A program made the position numbers and the translations under genes. Source: Alphaproteobacteria bacterium (lineage in GTDB: Bacteria > Pseudomonadota > Alphaproteobacteria > SMXS01). Taken from it: DNA of 64,000 nucleotides. The stretch spans positions 1-64,000 of the forward strand of contig JANQQJ010000029.1 in NCBI GenBank assembly GCA_028284945.1, written 5' to 3'. Under the pieces are notes generated by a model. The model saw only the letters and a list, made by a program, of their open reading frames with translations, was not told the DNA's origin and ran no database searches. Positions 54,967 to 64,000 of this stretch are shown one piece after another. The number at the start of each line of letters is the position of its first letter. The stretch's first letter is position 1.

Positions 54967-55572
54967 ATGATCAGCCCAATGCGATGTGTGGTTGCGATTC
55001 TGTTGTCGGTTGGCATAGCGGCGTGTGGCGAGGAACCTGATACATCGCCCGATGCGGTGCCTGCGGCTGTAAACCCGATCAAGGAAACTAGCATTGCCGA
55101 GTGCGGGGACCGGAACGGTTTTGCACGGCGCTTGACGCGCAATGCCGATGGGGCCCGCTGGGAAAGTGGCTGGATGGGGTATTTCGAGCGTGACTATACC
55201 GTGTGCCTGACCGACTCCAACCGGCTGGAGATTCGGTTTGAGCAATGCATTGTGTGGGGTCCGCGTGTTTCGGGCATGAACAGCAAGCAGATGATGGCGG
55301 AATGCGAAATTCCGCCGTTCAGATGGCAGCGCGGCCGGCAGTCTCTAGGGTTGAACGAGATCGTGCTGGCCGGCATTCGGATCGAGGAAGCCGATGCCCG
55401 GCTGCAAGGGTCAGGCTTGCGCGTTGTCTTCAACTGCAATGACGGATTGCTGGGCTGCGAACGCGTTCATGAGGGCTTCAACAGAAAGGCGCTCTTCGGC
55501 GTGCTCTGCAAAGACCGCGAAGCCTGTGAAGAAAGTGCCGAGATCATCCGCAAGCTGGTGATGGGCGCTTGA
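54967..55572 (+). CDS. Hypothetical lipoprotein
   Basis: A 201-residue lipoprotein: the signal VVAILLSVGIAACG has a clear lipobox with Cys near residue 20. The mature part contains eight or more Cys (AECGDRNG, TVCLTDSN, EQCIVWG, AECEIPP, NCNDGLLGCERV, LCKDREACEE), implying several disulfides in the periplasm. The family is not recognised. Its stop overlaps the next ATG by one base, so it is coupled to the spermidine-synthase-like gene. Confidence 0.65.
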   Translation: MISPMRCVVAILLSVGIAACGEEPDTSPDAVPAAVNPIKETSIAECGDRNGFARRLTRNADGARWESGWMGYFERDYTVCLTDSNRLEIRFEQCIVWGPRVSGMNSKQMMAECEIPPFRWQRGRQSLGLNEIVLAGIRIEEADARLQGSGLRVVFNCNDGLLGCERVHEGFNRKALFGVLCKDREACEESAEIIRKLVMGA

Positions 55573-56498
55573 TGGTTGCGTTGAGAAGCCTTGTGGTTGG
55601 GGTGTTGGCGTGGATGTCACTGTCACCGGCATCGGCGGAAGATCGGCTGATCGAAGCGCGGGAGTCGATTTACAACTCGATCTACATTTCTGACCGGGAT
55701 GGCCTGCGGGTGATGTCGTTCGGGCGTAACAAGCGCTACTGGACAGAGTCGATCTATGACCCGAATGACGAACTGGCGCTGGTGCTTGCCTATGGCCGCT
55801 ATATGACCGCGGCACTCGCCTACCCGCCCAAGCTGGATGCAATTGCGGAGATCGGATTTGGTGGTGGCCGGACGGCTTGGTACTTGCACAAGCACTTGCC
55901 GGATGTGCCAATCGTTTCGGTCGAACTGGACCCGGAAGTTGTGGCGCTTGCAAAGCAATATTTCGGTGTCGCGGACGGCCCGAATTTCGAGATCGTGGAG
56001 AAGGATGGCAGGTTATTTCTGGTCCGAAATAAGACTTCCTATGACGTGATCCTGGTCGATGCCTATCGCGGACCGTTTGTGCCGTTCCACCTGATGACTC
56101 GGGATTTCTATCAAGTTGCCAAACGCAACCTGACCCCCGGCGGCGTGCTGGCACAGAACATCCACACCACGACCATGCTGTTCGACTCAGCGATTGCGAC
56201 GCTCAAAAGCGTGTTCGATCATGTCGACCTCTATCAGCCGCGCGGCACCAATAATGTGGTCGCGATTGCCTATGACGGCGCCAAACGCAAACGCCGCGAT
56301 CTGATGCAATCGGCAGAGGCACTGCAAGCCAGGATCGGCTTCCGGTATGCCCTGCCAGGCCTGATTGCCGACCGCCGGGTGGTGAAGCGCGTGCCGGATG
56401 TTGACCCGCTGACCGATGACTTTGCACCGGTCGAAATGCTCAAGGCGATCGAACGGCACAATCAAGGCATTGATGATCTGGTAGAGGTGCCGGAGTGA
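55572..56498 (+). CDS. Exported spermidine-synthase-like protein
   Basis: A 308-residue SAM-fold protein. The SAM region is IAEIGFGGGRTAWYLHK near 95, VSVELDPEVVALAKQYFG near 118, and the catalytic-like YDVILVDAYRGP near 157. It resembles spermidine synthase and the C-terminal half of fused SpeE-like proteins. An apparent signal peptide (SLVVGVLAWMSLSPASAED) precedes it, which is odd for an enzyme that would need cytoplasmic SAM. It may instead be a single anchor holding the domain at the membrane. The next gene encodes the membrane half usually fused to this domain. Confidence 0.8.
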   Translation: MVALRSLVVGVLAWMSLSPASAEDRLIEARESIYNSIYISDRDGLRVMSFGRNKRYWTESIYDPNDELALVLAYGRYMTAALAYPPKLDAIAEIGFGGGRTAWYLHKHLPDVPIVSVELDPEVVALAKQYFGVADGPNFEIVEKDGRLFLVRNKTSYDVILVDAYRGPFVPFHLMTRDFYQVAKRNLTPGGVLAQNIHTTTMLFDSAIATLKSVFDHVDLYQPRGTNNVVAIAYDGAKRKRRDLMQSAEALQARIGFRYALPGLIADRRVVKRVPDVDPLTDDFAPVEMLKAIERHNQGIDDLVEVPE

Positions 56499-57118
56499 TG
56501 GGCGTGAAACAGCGGATTTTTGAGAACGGCATCTACCTCAACGGGCTGGTGCTCGGTTTTGTCCTTATGGGGTTCGAGATGCTGGGCAGCCGATATCTCA
56601 ACCCTTATTTCGGAAGCGGTATTGTCACCTGGGCGGCGCTGATCTCGACCGTGCTGGGCGCGCTGATGGTCGGCTATTACTTGGGTGGCTGGCTGGTTGA
56701 TCGCAATCCGCGGGCGTCGGTGCTGGCGAGCCTGTTGTTGGTCGCGGCGGTTTATCTGTTTCTGATCCCCGCTGGTGCCACCGGCGGCATTGAACTTGTC
56801 CTCGACTATGTTGGCGACGGCAATTTCGGTGTCATCGTTGCGGCCATGGCGCTGCTATTCATCCCGCTGGTTCTGCTGGGAACATTTTCACCCTTCGGCG
56901 TGCGTCTCCTGCTCGACAAGACAGAACGCGGGGGCCGCGTGACAGGCCGGGTTTATGGCATTTCCACGGTCGGCAACGTGATCGGCACGTTGGTCACGAC
57001 CCTGGTGCTGATCCCGGCTATCGGAACGCGGACCATTACACTGATTTTCGCCAGTATTGTCGTGTTGTGCGCGATAAGCCTCTTCGCGCTGGATCGCCAG
57101 AGGCCCGTTGTAAACTAG
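56498..57118 (+). CDS. Membrane half of a SpeE-like fused transporter
   Basis: A 206-residue protein with about six membrane helices (for example YLNGLVLGFVLMGFEMLGSR and FIPLVLLGTFSPFGVRLLL). It matches the N-terminal membrane part of fused MFS/spermidine-synthase proteins, including GRVYGISTVGNVIGTLVTT. In the usual fusion this part comes first and the SAM domain second; here they are separate genes in the reverse order, overlapping by one base (TGATG). A GTG three bases earlier is an alternative start. It may export or modify a polyamine-like product. Confidence 0.8.
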   Translation: MGVKQRIFENGIYLNGLVLGFVLMGFEMLGSRYLNPYFGSGIVTWAALISTVLGALMVGYYLGGWLVDRNPRASVLASLLLVAAVYLFLIPAGATGGIELVLDYVGDGNFGVIVAAMALLFIPLVLLGTFSPFGVRLLLDKTERGGRVTGRVYGISTVGNVIGTLVTTLVLIPAIGTRTITLIFASIVVLCAISLFALDRQRPVVN

Positions 57119-57744: not shown

Positions 57745-58178
57745 GCAGCCCCGTGTTGGCCAAGGACTTCTCAAAGGCAGCAGTGAAGCCCCCTAAGCGT
57801 AAACGGAAGGCTCCGCCGCCTTTCTCCATTCGGTTCACAGACGAAGAACGGGCGCGTCTTGACCGGGATGCTGGGGCGTTGTCCCTCGCCGCTTATATGC
57901 GCCTCAAGCTGTTCGCGGGAGACGAACCGCCGCCAACCAAGCGGAAGCCAACGCGGAAAAAACACATCCCTTCCGCTGAACTCGCTGTCATTGGTCAAAT
58001 GCTCGGCGGATTGGGACAATCCCGGCTTGCTTCCAACATGAACCAGATTGCCAAGGCCGCGAATATCGGGACGCTGCCTGTCAGCCCTGAGCTAGAGGCA
58101 GAGCTTTCGGAAGCCTGCGCCGCCATTCAGGATATGCGCCGAAATCTCATTCAGGCTTTGGGAGTCAAAGCCCGATGA
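57741..58178 (+). CDS. mobC: MobC-like relaxosome accessory protein
   Basis: A 145-residue basic protein. A Lys/Arg/Pro-rich start (KPPKRKRKAPPPFSIRF) precedes the ribbon-helix-helix-like TDEERARLDRDAGALSLAAY. The C-terminal block LGQSRLASNMNQIAKAANIG is the hallmark of plasmid mobilisation protein MobC. It would bind oriT and help the relaxase nick DNA. The ATG/TGA overlaps on both sides tie it to the upstream small frame and to the relaxase. Confidence 0.88.
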   Translation: MSSPVLAKDFSKAAVKPPKRKRKAPPPFSIRFTDEERARLDRDAGALSLAAYMRLKLFAGDEPPPTKRKPTRKKHIPSAELAVIGQMLGGLGQSRLASNMNQIAKAANIGTLPVSPELEAELSEACAAIQDMRRNLIQALGVKAR

Positions 58179-59491
58179 TCCTTAAAGGCAATGCGCGGGG
58201 CGGCGCGAAAGACTTGGCGCTGCACCTTGAGAAAGAAGAAAACGACCATGTAGAGGTTTATGAGCTTCGCGGCTTTGCCTCGGATAATCTCATGGGAGCG
58301 CTGAACGAGATTTATGCGCTCTCACGCGGCACGAAATGCCGCCAGTTTATGTATTCGCTGTCGCTGAACCCGCCTGAAACTGAGAGGGTGTCCACGGCGG
58401 ATTTTGTTGATGCGATTGAGCGCTGTGAAAAAAAGCTGGGTCTGGATAGCCAAGCCCGCGCCATTGTCTTTCATGAAAAGGAAGGACGCCGCCATGCGCA
58501 TGCGGTTTGGTCACGCATCGACATTTCCGAGATGAAAGCCGTTCAACTTTCCTATGACCGCAAGAAACTGAAAGCTGTATCCTGTGAATTGTTTCTTGAA
58601 CATGGCTGGCAAATGCCGCCGGGGCTGGTGAAGGATTCCGAGCGCGACCCGCTCAATTTCAACTTGGAAGAATGGCAACAGGCCAAGCGCACAGGGCAAA
58701 GCGCCAAGGACATTAAGGCCGCTATTCAGAATGCCTGGGCGATTTCGGACAACCGGGCGTCGTTCACGCACGCGCTTGAAGAACGCGGCTTCAAACTGGC
58801 GCGGGGAGACAAAGCACCGTTTTTGGCTGTCGATCACCACGGCGAGGTTTATTCGATCCCGCGCATGGTCCCGAATGTGAAAACGCGGGATGTGCGTGAA
58901 CGCCTAGGCGATGAAAACGCGCTGCCCTCTGTGGGTGAAGTCACGGCGCAATATGCGGGGGAGATGGCGGCAGCGATGCAGCGCCACAAAGCCGAACTGC
59001 AACGGGCTGGGCATGTCGAACTGGCGGAACTGAAAGAGGATAAAGAACGCCTTGTGATGCGCCAGCGGACGGAGCGCGAAGCGTTCTTGAAAGCACAGCG
59101 CGAACGGCAAGAACAGGAAGCCGTTGAGCGCCAAGCCCGCTTCAAAAAGGGTCTTGGCGGCTTATGGGACCGCCTGCGCGGTGAACATAAGCGCATCCGC
59201 GAGCATAATGAGCGTGAAGCCGAAGTCGCCGCGCTGCGTGATTCCGATGAAAAAGATAACCTCATATTCGCTCAACTGGCGCAGCGCCGGATGCTGAAAC
59301 AGCGCGTCCTTGCCTTTAAGGACCACTACACGGAACAGCGCCGCGAGCTTGATACGGACCGGGCGCGGTTTGAAACGATGCGTAGAACCGCTCTTGAGCA
59401 CAAGCGGGATGAATTCAGGAAAGCCAGAGCGAACAGCCCGCAGCGCAAGACCCGTCGCAGCTGTAATCGCGGCCCTGAACCTGAATTGTAA
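58175..59491 (+). CDS. Relaxase / mobilisation nuclease (MobA/VirD2-like)
   Basis: A 438-residue relaxase. The N-terminal nuclease domain (1-180) has ILKGNARGGAKDLALHL, SRGTKCRQFMYSLSLNPPE, and the metal-binding GRRHAHAVWSRIDI near 105. A possible nucleophile Tyr is in HVEVYELRGF. The C-terminal half is a long charged coiled coil (KERLVMRQRTEREAFLKAQR and similar) with no helicase domain. It would nick the transfer origin of a mobilisable element and rely on a type IV secretion system from elsewhere; no tra or vir genes are in view. It ends before a nested inverted repeat. Confidence 0.88.
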   Translation: MILKGNARGGAKDLALHLEKEENDHVEVYELRGFASDNLMGALNEIYALSRGTKCRQFMYSLSLNPPETERVSTADFVDAIERCEKKLGLDSQARAIVFHEKEGRRHAHAVWSRIDISEMKAVQLSYDRKKLKAVSCELFLEHGWQMPPGLVKDSERDPLNFNLEEWQQAKRTGQSAKDIKAAIQNAWAISDNRASFTHALEERGFKLARGDKAPFLAVDHHGEVYSIPRMVPNVKTRDVRERLGDENALPSVGEVTAQYAGEMAAAMQRHKAELQRAGHVELAELKEDKERLVMRQRTEREAFLKAQRERQEQEAVERQARFKKGLGGLWDRLRGEHKRIREHNEREAEVAALRDSDEKDNLIFAQLAQRRMLKQRVLAFKDHYTEQRRELDTDRARFETMRRTALEHKRDEFRKARANSPQRKTRRSCNRGPEPEL

Positions 59492-59849: not shown

Positions 59850-60791
59850 ATGACTGAAGTAATAAAAAAAAGAAAAAATGTACCAAAAAGCATTCAAGAA
59901 CTCGGTTCAAGCATCTGGAATTGTAATGTTTCAAGTTTACTAGATAGATTTCCCGAAGAAGAAGTTTTTGACCTTATAGTCACATCGCCACCGTACAATA
60001 TTGGAAAAATATATGAAAAAAGGGAGGATATAGAAGACTATATAGAATTTCATACGAAAATTATCAAACAAATGGTCCAGCGCTTGAAGAAGACAGGGAG
60101 CTTTTGCTTCCAAGTTGGGAACCATGTGAAAGATGGTGAAATACTACCTTTAGATTACCTCTTTTACCCAATAATCCATGACCAAGGTATGAAGCTGCGA
60201 AACCGCATAGTTTGGCACTATGGGCATGGGCTGCACCAAAAGCGCCGATTCAGCGGTCGCTACGAAGTGGTTTTGTGGTTCACCAAGACTGACACATACG
60301 AATTCGACTTAGACGCCGTGCGTGTTCCGCCAAAGTACCCGGGCAAACGAGCATATCGGGGACCTCGGACGGGACAGCTATCCTCTAACCCGCTCGGCAA
60401 GAACCCGGAAGATGTTTGGGAGGTCAAAGATTCTCCACATGATCTGTGGCAGATCCCAAATGTCAAAGCTGGTCACGTAGAGAAAACTGAGCACCCCTGC
60501 CAATTTCCCGTGGGCCTGATTGAAAGACTGCTTCTAGCGCTGACCAAAGAGAACGATGTTGTTTTCGACCCGTTTGCCGGAACCGGGTCCGCAGGCGTCG
60601 CAGCTTTGCTCCATGGCAGACAGTTTTGGGGATGCGAGATAGACCCAGAATACGCCGAACTAGCCGTGCAGCGAATGCGAAAGACATGTAAAGGTGAAGA
60701 GCGGTTTCGCTCACACGCCAAACCGATTTATGACCACCGGAAGTCGAAATTGTCGGTAGACCCAAACAAACTTGGCATCGCGGCAGAATAG
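59850..60791 (+). CDS. DNA methyltransferase (SPPY type, beta order)
   Basis: A 313-residue site-specific DNA methyltransferase. Catalytic motif IV, DLIVTSPPYNIGK, comes first near residue 45. The SAM motif, VVFDPFAGTGSAGVAALLHG, comes near the C-terminus, with FWGCEIDPEYAELAVQRM after it. This order is that of the beta class; Ser-Pro-Pro-Tyr often goes with N4-cytosine but also occurs in N6-adenine enzymes. The 5' half is AT-rich with many Lys and Ile codons, unlike the left part of the window. Starts at 59841 or 59850 are both possible; the latter has GGTAGG at better spacing. It is the first gene of the candidate defence module. Confidence 0.9.
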   Translation: MTEVIKKRKNVPKSIQELGSSIWNCNVSSLLDRFPEEEVFDLIVTSPPYNIGKIYEKREDIEDYIEFHTKIIKQMVQRLKKTGSFCFQVGNHVKDGEILPLDYLFYPIIHDQGMKLRNRIVWHYGHGLHQKRRFSGRYEVVLWFTKTDTYEFDLDAVRVPPKYPGKRAYRGPRTGQLSSNPLGKNPEDVWEVKDSPHDLWQIPNVKAGHVEKTEHPCQFPVGLIERLLLALTKENDVVFDPFAGTGSAGVAALLHGRQFWGCEIDPEYAELAVQRMRKTCKGEERFRSHAKPIYDHRKSKLSVDPNKLGIAAE

Positions 60792-60836
60792 AATTCAAGG
60801 GAATCACATGTCGCCATAAAGATTGAGGTTTTTTTG

Positions 60837-62060
60837 ATGGAATTAGGATGGCCGTTACCAAAGCGAAAACAGCACCTTGCAGATCTCGTCAAACAGGACA
60901 GCAAGAAAACTGACCGCGTACGATTTCAAGGGAAAGCTCAATTTATGCCGGTGTATTCCGTGCCGCTGGACCTACCACGTTATCGGTTGGAGAACGGTCG
61001 CACGACGGGCTTTCAAGCAGAGTACTTAGCAGCCCACCCTGACGTAGAAGAGGATTTTTTTCGAGTCGATGGAGAATCCGAGGCAGCGCAGTCCGTCCAG
61101 CACGGTATTCTCAAGAAACTCGCACGGGGTTCTAAAGACCTGTTCCGGGAGTTTGAAACGGCAGAACAGGAAGAGCCGATCATACTTTCGGCAACCGGAT
61201 ATGTGATTAACGGAAATCGGCGCCTGTGTACCTGGCGAACGCTCTACGAAGAAGACCCCGCCAGATACAGCCGATTTGCAAACATCGACGCGATCATTCT
61301 TCCGCCATGCGACGAAAGAGACCTGGATCGACTCGAGGCAGAACTACAGCTCAAAGAGGACCTGAAAGCGGAGTATAGCTGGACCTCGAAAGCGCTAATG
61401 ATGCGAGAGAAGATGACAAGATTTTCTTATAATGAAGAGGAAATTTCGTCCATTTATGGTTTTAAAAAAGGAGAGCTTCAGGAGTTATTGGATTGCCTTG
61501 ATTACGCTGACGAGTACCTAAAAAGCCGTGATCTGACACGCCAATATTCACAGGTTGATGGGAAAGAGTTTGCGTTCCGCCAGATTTGCCGCAGTAGAAA
61601 AAAGGTAAAATCTCCACGCTCCCGTGAGGTCTTTGAGAAATCTGCATTTTGTTTAACCGATGATGCTGCAGAAGGTACGAGAACCTATGCAGAAATCCAA
61701 AAAGCAGCCGACAATCTGAGCGAAGTCACATCCGGTCTAGCTGCAGAGTTTGAGGTCGATACCGAAGGAAAGTCGGAAACCGAGGTCGCGACCGCCCTTA
61801 CTGCGATTCTCGAGGATAGCGCTAACTTCGACCGAGCACGGGAGTCCATTCAAGAAACAATTGCGTCTGCTACGGCGCGGGCACGCGACAGGAAAAAAGA
61901 GCTGCATGTTTCAAGTCGCGTCGCGCAGGCCAAGCAGAACCTTATAGATGCGAAACAGGCAATTGACGAAAACGCTTCGCGCAAAGGCGTTGTAGCTCAC
62001 TTGGATCAAATCGCTGAGATTGTTGCCGAACTTCGCCGGTGGGCGGAGGACGATGAGTAG
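60837..62060 (+). CDS. ParB-fold nuclease-like protein
   Basis: A 407-residue protein. An N-terminal ParB/Srx-like domain spans residues 35-150: VYSVPLDLPRYRLENGRTTG, and the signature SATGYVINGNRRLCTWR in place of the ParB GxxR box. A helical region with YNEEEISSIYGFKKGELQEL near 200, resembling the ParB helix-turn-helix, follows. The C-terminal part is a coiled coil (SRVAQAKQNLIDAKQAIDEN). ParB-fold proteins of this type occur in methylation-linked anti-phage loci, where they may cut or bind DNA; the exact role here is inferred. It starts at ATG 60837 and ends overlapping the helicase gene by eight bases. Confidence 0.75.
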   Translation: MELGWPLPKRKQHLADLVKQDSKKTDRVRFQGKAQFMPVYSVPLDLPRYRLENGRTTGFQAEYLAAHPDVEEDFFRVDGESEAAQSVQHGILKKLARGSKDLFREFETAEQEEPIILSATGYVINGNRRLCTWRTLYEEDPARYSRFANIDAIILPPCDERDLDRLEAELQLKEDLKAEYSWTSKALMMREKMTRFSYNEEEISSIYGFKKGELQELLDCLDYADEYLKSRDLTRQYSQVDGKEFAFRQICRSRKKVKSPRSREVFEKSAFCLTDDAAEGTRTYAEIQKAADNLSEVTSGLAAEFEVDTEGKSETEVATALTAILEDSANFDRARESIQETIASATARARDRKKELHVSSRVAQAKQNLIDAKQAIDENASRKGVVAHLDQIAEIVAELRRWAEDDE

Positions 62061-63840
62061 AGCGGTTCGAATATCCTATGATGAGACGTCGCGGTCCGCG
62101 CTTGTAGAAGTCGAGGGATCCGAAGATACATGGCGGTCTATCCGCCGTGTGTGCCAGGACTCTTTTGGGGAAACCGACGTCACCGGTCAGACCTCACTCG
62201 AAATGCCCTGGTGGGCATTTTTGGGCTGCCTGGATGAAATCGAATACTACGCTAACCGTTATCAGGTCCCTCTCGAACATTCCCAAGATGCTGCTAAGCG
62301 CCTTCAACAATCCAAAGCTGCTGTCGCACAGTATGAGGAAGCGAAGACGGGAGTCGGCCCGTCCGAAGCCGAGATCTTTACCGAGCTCGCATCCAAGAGA
62401 TTTCTGCGAGAACTTACCGAAGAGCAAGCGCGGAACGTGAGCAGAATGATGGCTCTGCCATCAGCCGCCACATTCTCCGTGCCAGGTGCCGGGAAGACCA
62501 CCGAGGCGTTGTCCTTTTATGCGTTGAAGCGTACTCCCGAAACCCGCCTTCTCGTTGTATGCCCGAAAAACGCATTCGCGGCATGGGAAGAGCAGCTCGC
62601 ACTTTGCATGGAGCATGAGGACCAGTTTATCCGATTGCGCGGCGGAAGAATTGCAATTGAAGCGGCCCTAAAAGAGGCGCCCCTTAAAGCCCTTATCACT
62701 TACCAACAATTACCCAATGTTTTGGATCTGATCGGGGCATACCTCGAATACTGGGATAGTTTCGTTTTTTTGGATGAGTCTCACCGAATAAAACGAGGGT
62801 TTCAGGGTGTCATAGGAAACGCAATTTTGTCTATCGCCCAAATTCCAAAATCGAAACTCATTCTATCGGGCACTCCGATGCCGAATGATGTGAGCGACCT
62901 GGTACCGCAGTTTCGGTTCCTGTACCCAGAGATCTTGGCAGATGAGGAAACGGTCGAAGAGTACATTCGACCGGTATATGTCCGAACGACAAAAAGTGAA
63001 CTTGGGTTACGTCCACCCGAAAAAACGATCAAACGACTTCCGCTTAAGCCGGCGCAATTCGAGTTGTACCAATTGCTACGCTCAGAAACCGCTCGTCAAG
63101 CGAAAGCGAATCTGAGCCGCATTGATCTGAGTGCTTTGAGACGGGCGGGTCGCAGTGCCCTTCGCCTTCTTCAAGTCGCTACAAACCCGTCTCTGCTTGC
63201 GCGATTAGAGGAGTTCGAACACGAAACGCTTTTGTCCGAAGTGCTTAGCGAGGGCGATAGTCCGAAGTTAGAATATGCCTGCTATAGAGCCAGGGAATTG
63301 GCGTTCGAGGGTTATAAGTCGATTATCTGGTCGAGTTTTGTCCAGAATGTCGAGTTGGTGTCGAACCGCCTACTCGACATTGGGGCGGAATATATACACG
63401 GCGGTGTTGATGCGGGAAGTGAGAACGAGGAAGGCACCCGTGAACAAAAGATAAAGCGCTTTCATGATGATGATAACTGCTGGGTCATGGTGGCTAATCC
63501 TGCGGCTTGTGGAGAAGGGATAAGCCTGCATACCGTTTGTCATCACGCGATTTACCTCGATCGAAATTACAACGCTGCGCAGTACTTACAGTCTGAAGAC
63601 AGAATCCATCGCCTTGGACTTCCCCCGGAGCAACAAACGTTTGTTGAAATTTTGCAGTCACCCGGAACGGTCGATGAGTCCGTTGATCGGCGCCTCGGAA
63701 TCAAAATTGAAAACATGGCAAGGGTCCTAAACGACGCGTCATTGAACGAGGAACCTGAGATTATTGATTTGGATGCGGATGGCTTCGATGTCGATGACTT
63801 CAACGATTTCAGAGCCCACCTTGCCGAGAAGGTTGCATGA
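62053..63840 (+). CDS. SNF2-type DEAD/DEAH helicase
   Basis: A 595-residue superfamily 2 ATPase. Walker A is SVPGAGKTTEAL near residue 157, followed by LLVVCPKNAFAAWEEQL (motif Ia). Walker B is FVFLDESHRIKRG near 245, motif III LILSGTPMPND near 280. The C-terminal domain has IIWSSFVQNVELVSNRLLD and motif VI LQSEDRIHRLG near 520. The layout is that of SNF2-like remodelling translocases, including the first residues with an added 140-residue N-terminal domain. It starts at ATG 62053 inside the ParB-like gene. It would move along DNA or strip proteins as part of a defence complex. Confidence 0.9.
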   Translation: MSRAVRISYDETSRSALVEVEGSEDTWRSIRRVCQDSFGETDVTGQTSLEMPWWAFLGCLDEIEYYANRYQVPLEHSQDAAKRLQQSKAAVAQYEEAKTGVGPSEAEIFTELASKRFLRELTEEQARNVSRMMALPSAATFSVPGAGKTTEALSFYALKRTPETRLLVVCPKNAFAAWEEQLALCMEHEDQFIRLRGGRIAIEAALKEAPLKALITYQQLPNVLDLIGAYLEYWDSFVFLDESHRIKRGFQGVIGNAILSIAQIPKSKLILSGTPMPNDVSDLVPQFRFLYPEILADEETVEEYIRPVYVRTTKSELGLRPPEKTIKRLPLKPAQFELYQLLRSETARQAKANLSRIDLSALRRAGRSALRLLQVATNPSLLARLEEFEHETLLSEVLSEGDSPKLEYACYRARELAFEGYKSIIWSSFVQNVELVSNRLLDIGAEYIHGGVDAGSENEEGTREQKIKRFHDDDNCWVMVANPAACGEGISLHTVCHHAIYLDRNYNAAQYLQSEDRIHRLGLPPEQQTFVEILQSPGTVDESVDRRLGIKIENMARVLNDASLNEEPEIIDLDADGFDVDDFNDFRAHLAEKVA

Positions 63841-63843
63841 GAG

Positions 63844-64000
63844 ATGTTTTCGGTAGGCGTTTTGTATTCGTGCCAAACCTTTCTACAGGTTATTCGTGAA
63901 GATCGTCTCGACATCGAGAATTTTGAAAAGAACTTCACCCGCATTGAGGTCGCAGATGGCAAAGCGGTTTTGTCACTATCTCAACAGTGTCGATGGATAA
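63844..64000 (+). CDS. Partial ORF at the right edge
   Basis: Starts four bases after the helicase stop, with GAGAG before the ATG, and runs open to the end of the window (52 codons): MFSVGVLYSCQTFLQVIRED at first, then DIENFEKNFTRIEVADGKAV. The family is not recognised. Its close spacing makes it the next gene of the same operon; in comparable loci such a gene is often a nuclease, but nothing in these residues shows that. A competing ATG at 63837 gives only 20 codons. Confidence 0.55.
   Translation, partial: MFSVGVLYSCQTFLQVIREDRLDIENFEKNFTRIEVADGKAVLSLSQQCRWI

Follow-up and report, generated by a model that had tools for sequence, protein, structure and literature searches.

A ParB-fold protein, an SNF2 motor and a predicted nuclease recur as the core of a candidate modification-linked restriction cassette

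What is the function of four tightly spaced genes, all on one strand, that begin with a DNA methyltransferase and run off the right end of the 64,000-nucleotide stretch analysed here (the window)? The initial annotation had proposed a defence module linked to DNA modification, with its fourth gene out of view. The window covers positions 1-64000 of a contig (C24) of 86,809 bases, and since the contig runs on past the window, the fourth gene could be read. The coordinates of all four genes were reread (Table 1), and the tight same-strand arrangement proved real. The 45 bases between the methyltransferase and the ParB-like gene and the 8-base overlap between the ParB-like and SNF2 genes were as first described, whereas the gap before gene 4 was 3 bases rather than 4. 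The operon stops after gene 4, and the cassette is about 5 kb in size. Its GC content is indeed lower, at 0.46-0.50 over the methyltransferase/ParB part versus 0.56-0.57 for the mobilisation genes that directly precede it; among these, a TraI/MobP-like relaxase adjoins the block as claimed.

Table 1. Genes of the cassette and the neighbouring relaxase (window positions, identical to those of contig C24)
Feature	Coordinates	Strand	Remarks
Relaxase of the mobilizable element (context, outside the system)	58175-59491	+	NCBIfam TraI_MobP_relax, E 5e-8, below the family cut-off
Gene 1, methyltransferase	59850-60791	+	ATG at 59850, stop ends at 60791; longer TTG-start ORF from 59823
Gene 2, ParB-like	60837-62060	+	ATG at 60837, stop ends at 62060; TTG-start ORF from 60834
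Gene 3, SNF2	62053-63840	+	ATG at 62053, stop ends at 63840; TTG-start ORF from 62020
Gene 4, wHTH + NOV_C (predicted nuclease)	63844-64692 (63844-64000 inside the window)	+	282 aa

Gene 1 encodes a beta-class amino DNA methyltransferase (Pfam N6_N4_Mtase, PF01555, E 1.2e-56) that also matched the PADLOC family MTase_II (E 6e-72). Its PDB matches were RsrI, MboIIA and N4-cytosine methyltransferases, with N6A and N4C enzymes both among the nearest; RsrI, the nearest of all, is an N6-adenine enzyme. Motif IV of gene 1 is TSPPY, and TSPPY or SSPPY was present in 51 of 52 homologues. Because TSPPY in motif IV is usual in N4-cytosine enzymes, this motif, the only one from which the reading is taken, suggests N4-cytosine methylation.

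Gene 2 was barely detectable by sequence searches, with almost no match. Its AlphaFold2 model (pLDDT 95) confirmed the ParB-fold component of the initial annotation, predicting a ParB/Srx N-domain followed by an HTH domain. The best PDB matches were KorB, ParB-CTP and Noc (Z 9-10), with Spo0J also found; they covered residues 38-305 and spanned both domains, with C-terminal helices beyond. Aligned by hhalign with the host chromosomal ParB, the protein matched it at the GERR box and the HTH (E 1.3e-4). R56, Q112, G122, G127, N128, R130 and E168 were invariant in 80 homologues, and the nucleotide-binding motifs were partly matched, with NGNRR for GERR and without a clear alignment for ENLQR. By analogy with true ParB, gene 2 could possibly act as a nucleotide-gated clamp.

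Gene 3 is, as judged from its motifs, an SNF2-type helicase/translocase (Pfam SNF2-rel_dom, E 2e-15; Helicase_C, E 2e-7). Its Walker A (PGAGKTT), DESH box and motif VI (QSEDRIHRLGL) were intact, and the motif residues were kept in 12 homologues. Extending the sequence to the right identified gene 4 as a NOV_C (DUF3883) protein (Pfam E 1.7e-11). The model of its homologue at locus L026 (pLDDT 96) combined an N-terminal winged helix, matching wHTH regulators at Z about 8, with a C-terminal PD-(D/E)XK fold closest to I-Ssp6803I (Z 11.8), NhoI (11.2) and Hjc (11.1). D185, E201, K203 and E157 (numbering of the L026 homologue) were invariant in 78 of 78 sequences, and gene 4 is therefore a predicted PD-(D/E)XK nuclease with an intact D..ExK site. 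The set thus contains the nuclease-like factor that had been expected, and the role falls to the fourth gene, not to the ParB-like protein.

Homologous neighbourhoods were collected with an SNF2 helicase alignment alone as bait, itself built from helicases already beside ParB. The scan found at least 482 genome loci; the 80 best were retained, and 25 loci from viral contigs were added. ParB lay directly upstream of SNF2 in 103 of these 105 loci, and the two exceptions both begin at contig edges; given how the bait was built, this figure describes the close family and not SNF2 helicases at large. The pair was spread over many phyla, chromosomes included. NOV_C was the next gene after SNF2 in 93 of 115 neighbourhoods. 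Among plasmid relatives of the ParB-like protein, the order ParB-SNF2-DUF3883 occurred in Kozakia, Mesorhizobium, Azospirillum and Rhizobium; Lactiplantibacillus had ParB-SNF2-MutH/Sau3AI next to dcm and Vsr. The ParB-SNF2 pair, with its nuclease, appears to be the constant effector core of the family. The neighbourhood search proposed at the outset was productive with the helicase as bait. The ParB-like protein, the bait originally suggested, found no relatives when used alone on viral contigs, and an alignment of 13 ParB sequences contained no segment of sufficient conservation to serve as bait for a wider scan. Homologous loci combine a methyltransferase, a ParB-fold protein, SNF2 and a nuclease; they are found on plasmids and mobile elements, with Vsr, dcm and HNH genes as neighbours, in agreement with the modification-linked defence module first proposed.

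Variants of this arrangement were also recorded. At three actinobacterial loci (L101, L103 and L105), NaeI follows SNF2 in place of NOV_C, and an HNH-like gene precedes ParB. On four viral contigs (L125, L126, L128 and L130), a Type III Mod-Res pair sits directly upstream of ParB-SNF2, and NOV_C is missing. At L015, the SNF2 protein bears an N-terminal PLD-like stretch and is followed by a MutH/Sau3AI-like protein (L015:9737-10480) that reads KLK, by eye, where the catalytic E-x-K is expected; this is possibly another inactivated restriction enzyme. In another genome, a ParB homologue adjoining a possible regulator (L018:6460-8028) has neither SNF2 nor nuclease beside it. Lacking SNF2, this locus was rejected as a copy of the module, and it is perhaps a relic.

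Does the set belong to a known system? When the four genes and the ORFs around them were scanned with PADLOC, no system combination was matched, that of a known R-M type included, in keeping with the remark in the initial annotation that this exact set was not recognised. In the literature, searched in open-access papers, the parts were found and no paper described the whole set; we thus found no description, in those papers or in PADLOC, of the ParB-SNF2 core as a system, recurrent as it is in many phyla. The DISARM-like logic noted at first held for the methyltransferase and the SNF2-like helicase, which weakly matches DrmD. The core of DISARM consists of DrmA (helicase), DrmB (DUF1998) and DrmC (PLD), and its defining DrmB and DrmC were absent from the PADLOC scans (for the methyltransferase, among the best 25 of 62 families), so DISARM was rejected. 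The match of SNF2 to DrmA was at chance level (E 6e-4), and neither ParB nor NOV_C proteins are known as components of DISARM. In Type I R-M systems, specificity comes from the HsdS subunit, which accompanies HsdM and HsdR; they were rejected, as Pfam scans gave no HsdS or HsdR domain and the operon ends where it does. Type III systems, likewise rejected, consist of Mod with a target recognition domain and Res with a fused DEAD helicase-nuclease, whereas the cassette has an SNF2-class helicase and its nuclease in a separate gene, and a Mod-Res pair occurs only in the four relatives above. BREX, built on PglZ and BrxC with a PglX-type methyltransferase, was rejected since genes 2-4 matched neither PglZ nor any other BREX family in PADLOC. 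Zorya has the ZorA-ZorB membrane motor, and of the four genes read only SNF2 matched it, weakly, through ZorD, so Zorya was rejected too.

What varied among the relatives was the gene content outside the core. A BglII-like restriction enzyme homologue of about 153 residues (Pfam BglII) was found in 66 of 115 loci, and in most relatives it is encoded between the methyltransferase and ParB. Its PDB search returned BstYI (E 1.7e-8), OkrAI and BamHI. The column of the BstYI catalytic Glu (E128, taken from the alignment) held C, Q, H or G in 48 of 48 proteins, and the column of the first catalytic Asp held T, F, S, A or N in all 48; the second position was Q, and the T-G-N and R/D/K positions were retained. 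Our reading is that this protein is a restriction enzyme predicted to bind DNA still but to be unable to cut it. Compared with Type II systems of the BglII/BamHI/BstYI kind, the cassette family shares the enzyme family of most relatives' recognition subunit and methyltransferases with an SPPY motif, but the catalytic acids are lost, cutting is assigned to another protein, and the enzyme is absent from the window. Other recognition genes were BanI/DpnII-like (8), HNH-like (7), Type III Mod+Res (4) and others, and NaeI and MutH-like genes too replace or accompany the BglII-like gene at some loci. The methyltransferases of the family are beta-class or m5C. Recognition classes followed clades on the SNF2 tree, with label clustering that exceeded all shuffles. 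Since ParB-SNF2-nuclease stays constant while the specificity genes vary, the effector appears to be plugged into swappable recognition modules.

A Type II R-M system consists of a methyltransferase and a stand-alone site-specific enzyme that cuts without ATP. The loci could be ordinary islands of this type, the nuclease cutting alone and ParB and SNF2 being accessories that clear or remodel DNA. The methyltransferases do resemble Type II enzymes, and the loci do contain homologues of BglII, BanI, NaeI and MutH, the actinobacterial NaeI retaining, by inspection, its E..D..DCK residues. However, the commonest of these homologues lacks its catalytic acids in every protein aligned, and it is ParB-SNF2 that is constant and the Type II proteins that vary. 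We consider such an island unlikely.

The window belongs to a clade of three genomes (L002, the window; L016, genome G056; L026, a Paracoccaceae MAG), supported on the SNF2 tree and nested among BglII-bearing loci. The methyltransferase of this clade falls inside the BglII-type methyltransferases, and it is uninterrupted and adjoins ParB in all three loci. Six-frame reading upstream of ParB in the window revealed no restriction enzyme-like gene, and profile scans of the three genomes found no BglII-like gene, with 5 of 5 control genomes positive. From the nesting, the BglII-type methyltransferase and the missing gene together, it is most likely that the restriction enzyme-like subunit was lost in this clade and the methyltransferase kept. 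The absence of the subunit from the window genome and its two relatives would also fit a Type IV-like, modification-sensing system, in which the core senses the state or the ends of DNA and the methyltransferase is residual or epigenetic. Yet an uninterrupted methyltransferase adjoining ParB was kept in all three, and Type IV systems have no methyltransferase; for this clade we regard such sensing as quite improbable.

We favour, as the probable explanation, an ATP-dependent multi-subunit R-M system in which a constant ParB/SNF2/wHTH-nuclease effector is joined to an exchangeable recognition module. In the order of events that we infer, the methyltransferase would mark host sites, probably with N4-methylcytosine, and unmarked sites on incoming DNA would be recognised, in most relatives by the non-cutting BglII/BamHI-family protein. 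The ParB-fold protein would then be loaded at the site, possibly as a nucleotide-gated clamp, and engage the SNF2 motor, which would travel along the DNA, with the NOV_C nuclease making the cut. The BglII-like reader has no part in this in the window, from which the protein is absent; with the subunit lost there, recognition would have to fall to one of three parts: the methyltransferase, the HTH of the ParB-like protein or the winged helix of the nuclease. Whether the family as a whole is a widespread, unnamed class of restriction can be answered more tentatively: it may be one in which a catalytically dead Type II enzyme (in the window clade, the methyltransferase) reads the site and loads a nucleotide-gated clamp of the ParB type, this clamp passes the DNA on to SNF2 and a separate nuclease, and the reader is swapped from lineage to lineage while the ParB-SNF2 core stays constant.

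ParB clamps have an established place in the partition of chromosomes and plasmids; paired tightly with SNF2 in apparent immunity, they would carry the clamp idea into restriction. The BglII-like proteins would be a case of restriction enzymes turned pure readers, with cutting passed to another protein, and the plug-in design could account for the gain of new specificities. With at least 482 genome loci in a single scan and compact cassettes, the family is common and small enough to be testable in laboratory strains.

The closest working analogue is the CglI/NgoAVII type, in which methyltransferase, nuclease and helicase-like ATPase are separate, as in the cassette, and ATP-driven one-dimensional communication precedes cutting (PMC5737866, PMC4267653). 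Those systems use an R-protein and a DEAD-family ATPase, whereas the cassette has a wHTH-PD-(D/E)XK (NOV_C) nuclease and an SNF2 motor, for which reason membership was rejected; moreover, the cassette has a ParB-fold protein and none is among the CglI parts listed (PMC4267653). Iyer and Aravind (2008) described MORC/paraMORC operons in mobile R-M neighbourhoods, where SWI2/SNF2 helicases occur together with Vsr, dcm and nucleases (PMC2292703). Some cassette relatives likewise adjoin an ATP-binding protein, Vsr and dcm. However, those operons are defined by GHKL ATPases and ParB is unmentioned in that paper, and the four cassette proteins have no GHKL domain in Pfam, so membership was rejected here as well. 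These MORC operons and SNF2-DUF3883 fusions are the nearest accounts found in print. The fusions, with DUF3883 named a novel restriction enzyme domain, were reported in the Ava_2192 neighbourhood of HEPN-associated R-M loci (PMC3710099); there the two are one protein, accompanied by HEPN-AAA proteins and with no ParB named, whereas the cassette genes are separate.

Once triggered, a nuclease that is encoded separately and has no known sequence specificity could also turn on host DNA, which would make the cassette an abortive infection system, and ParB/Srx proteins of other defence loci have been proposed as nucleases or NTPases (PMC12839542). The linked methyltransferase points instead to self-protection by marking, and we hold host killing to be very improbable.

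The cassette is located on a mobilizable element of about 20 kb beside tRNA-Leu. Genes downstream of the module encode a tyrosine recombinase and an HTH protein, a coupling protein of the TraG type, proteins of the ThiF and JAB kinds, and a large serine recombinase; the last gene (C24 75003-76634, L002:18004-19635) runs into tRNA-Leu(CAA). The same tRNA-Leu adjoins dsbB/coq7 in three family relatives. In one of these three, the region matching 54.1-54.3 kb of the contig is only about 1.8 kb from the tRNA, so about 20 kb was inserted in the window genome. Direct repeats were sought at the element ends and were not found. Such a setting raises the question of whether the cassette is a maintenance or partition unit, its ParB-like protein partitioning the element and the other genes aiding transfer. 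It adjoins mobilisation genes, it has a ParB fold with an HTH, and relatives of the ParB-like protein are annotated as partition proteins in plasmid records. Against this, no ParA is present in the operon or adjoins it, and the host ParA-ParB pair is chromosomal and on another contig (C34), so ParABS partition was rejected; gene 4, which the initial annotation allowed might prove a partition or housekeeping gene, is a predicted nuclease; and the link of ParB to SNF2 and nuclease genes holds across phyla and in chromosomes too. A partition role is hardly probable at all, and restriction remains our preferred reading.

Two further gene groups were seen near the cassette. Two adjacent ORFs in the window (55569-57118), each in a different frame, resemble an enzyme domain of the spermidine synthase type and a membrane part; no close homologues of the pair were present in the relatives searched. 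On the same element, C24 71564-74143 (L002:14565-17144) encodes three proteins, of which one is ThiF-type and E1-like (Pfam ThiF, E 7e-21), one is small and of unknown kind and one has a JAB domain; as a group they resemble parts of ubiquitin-like modification operons.
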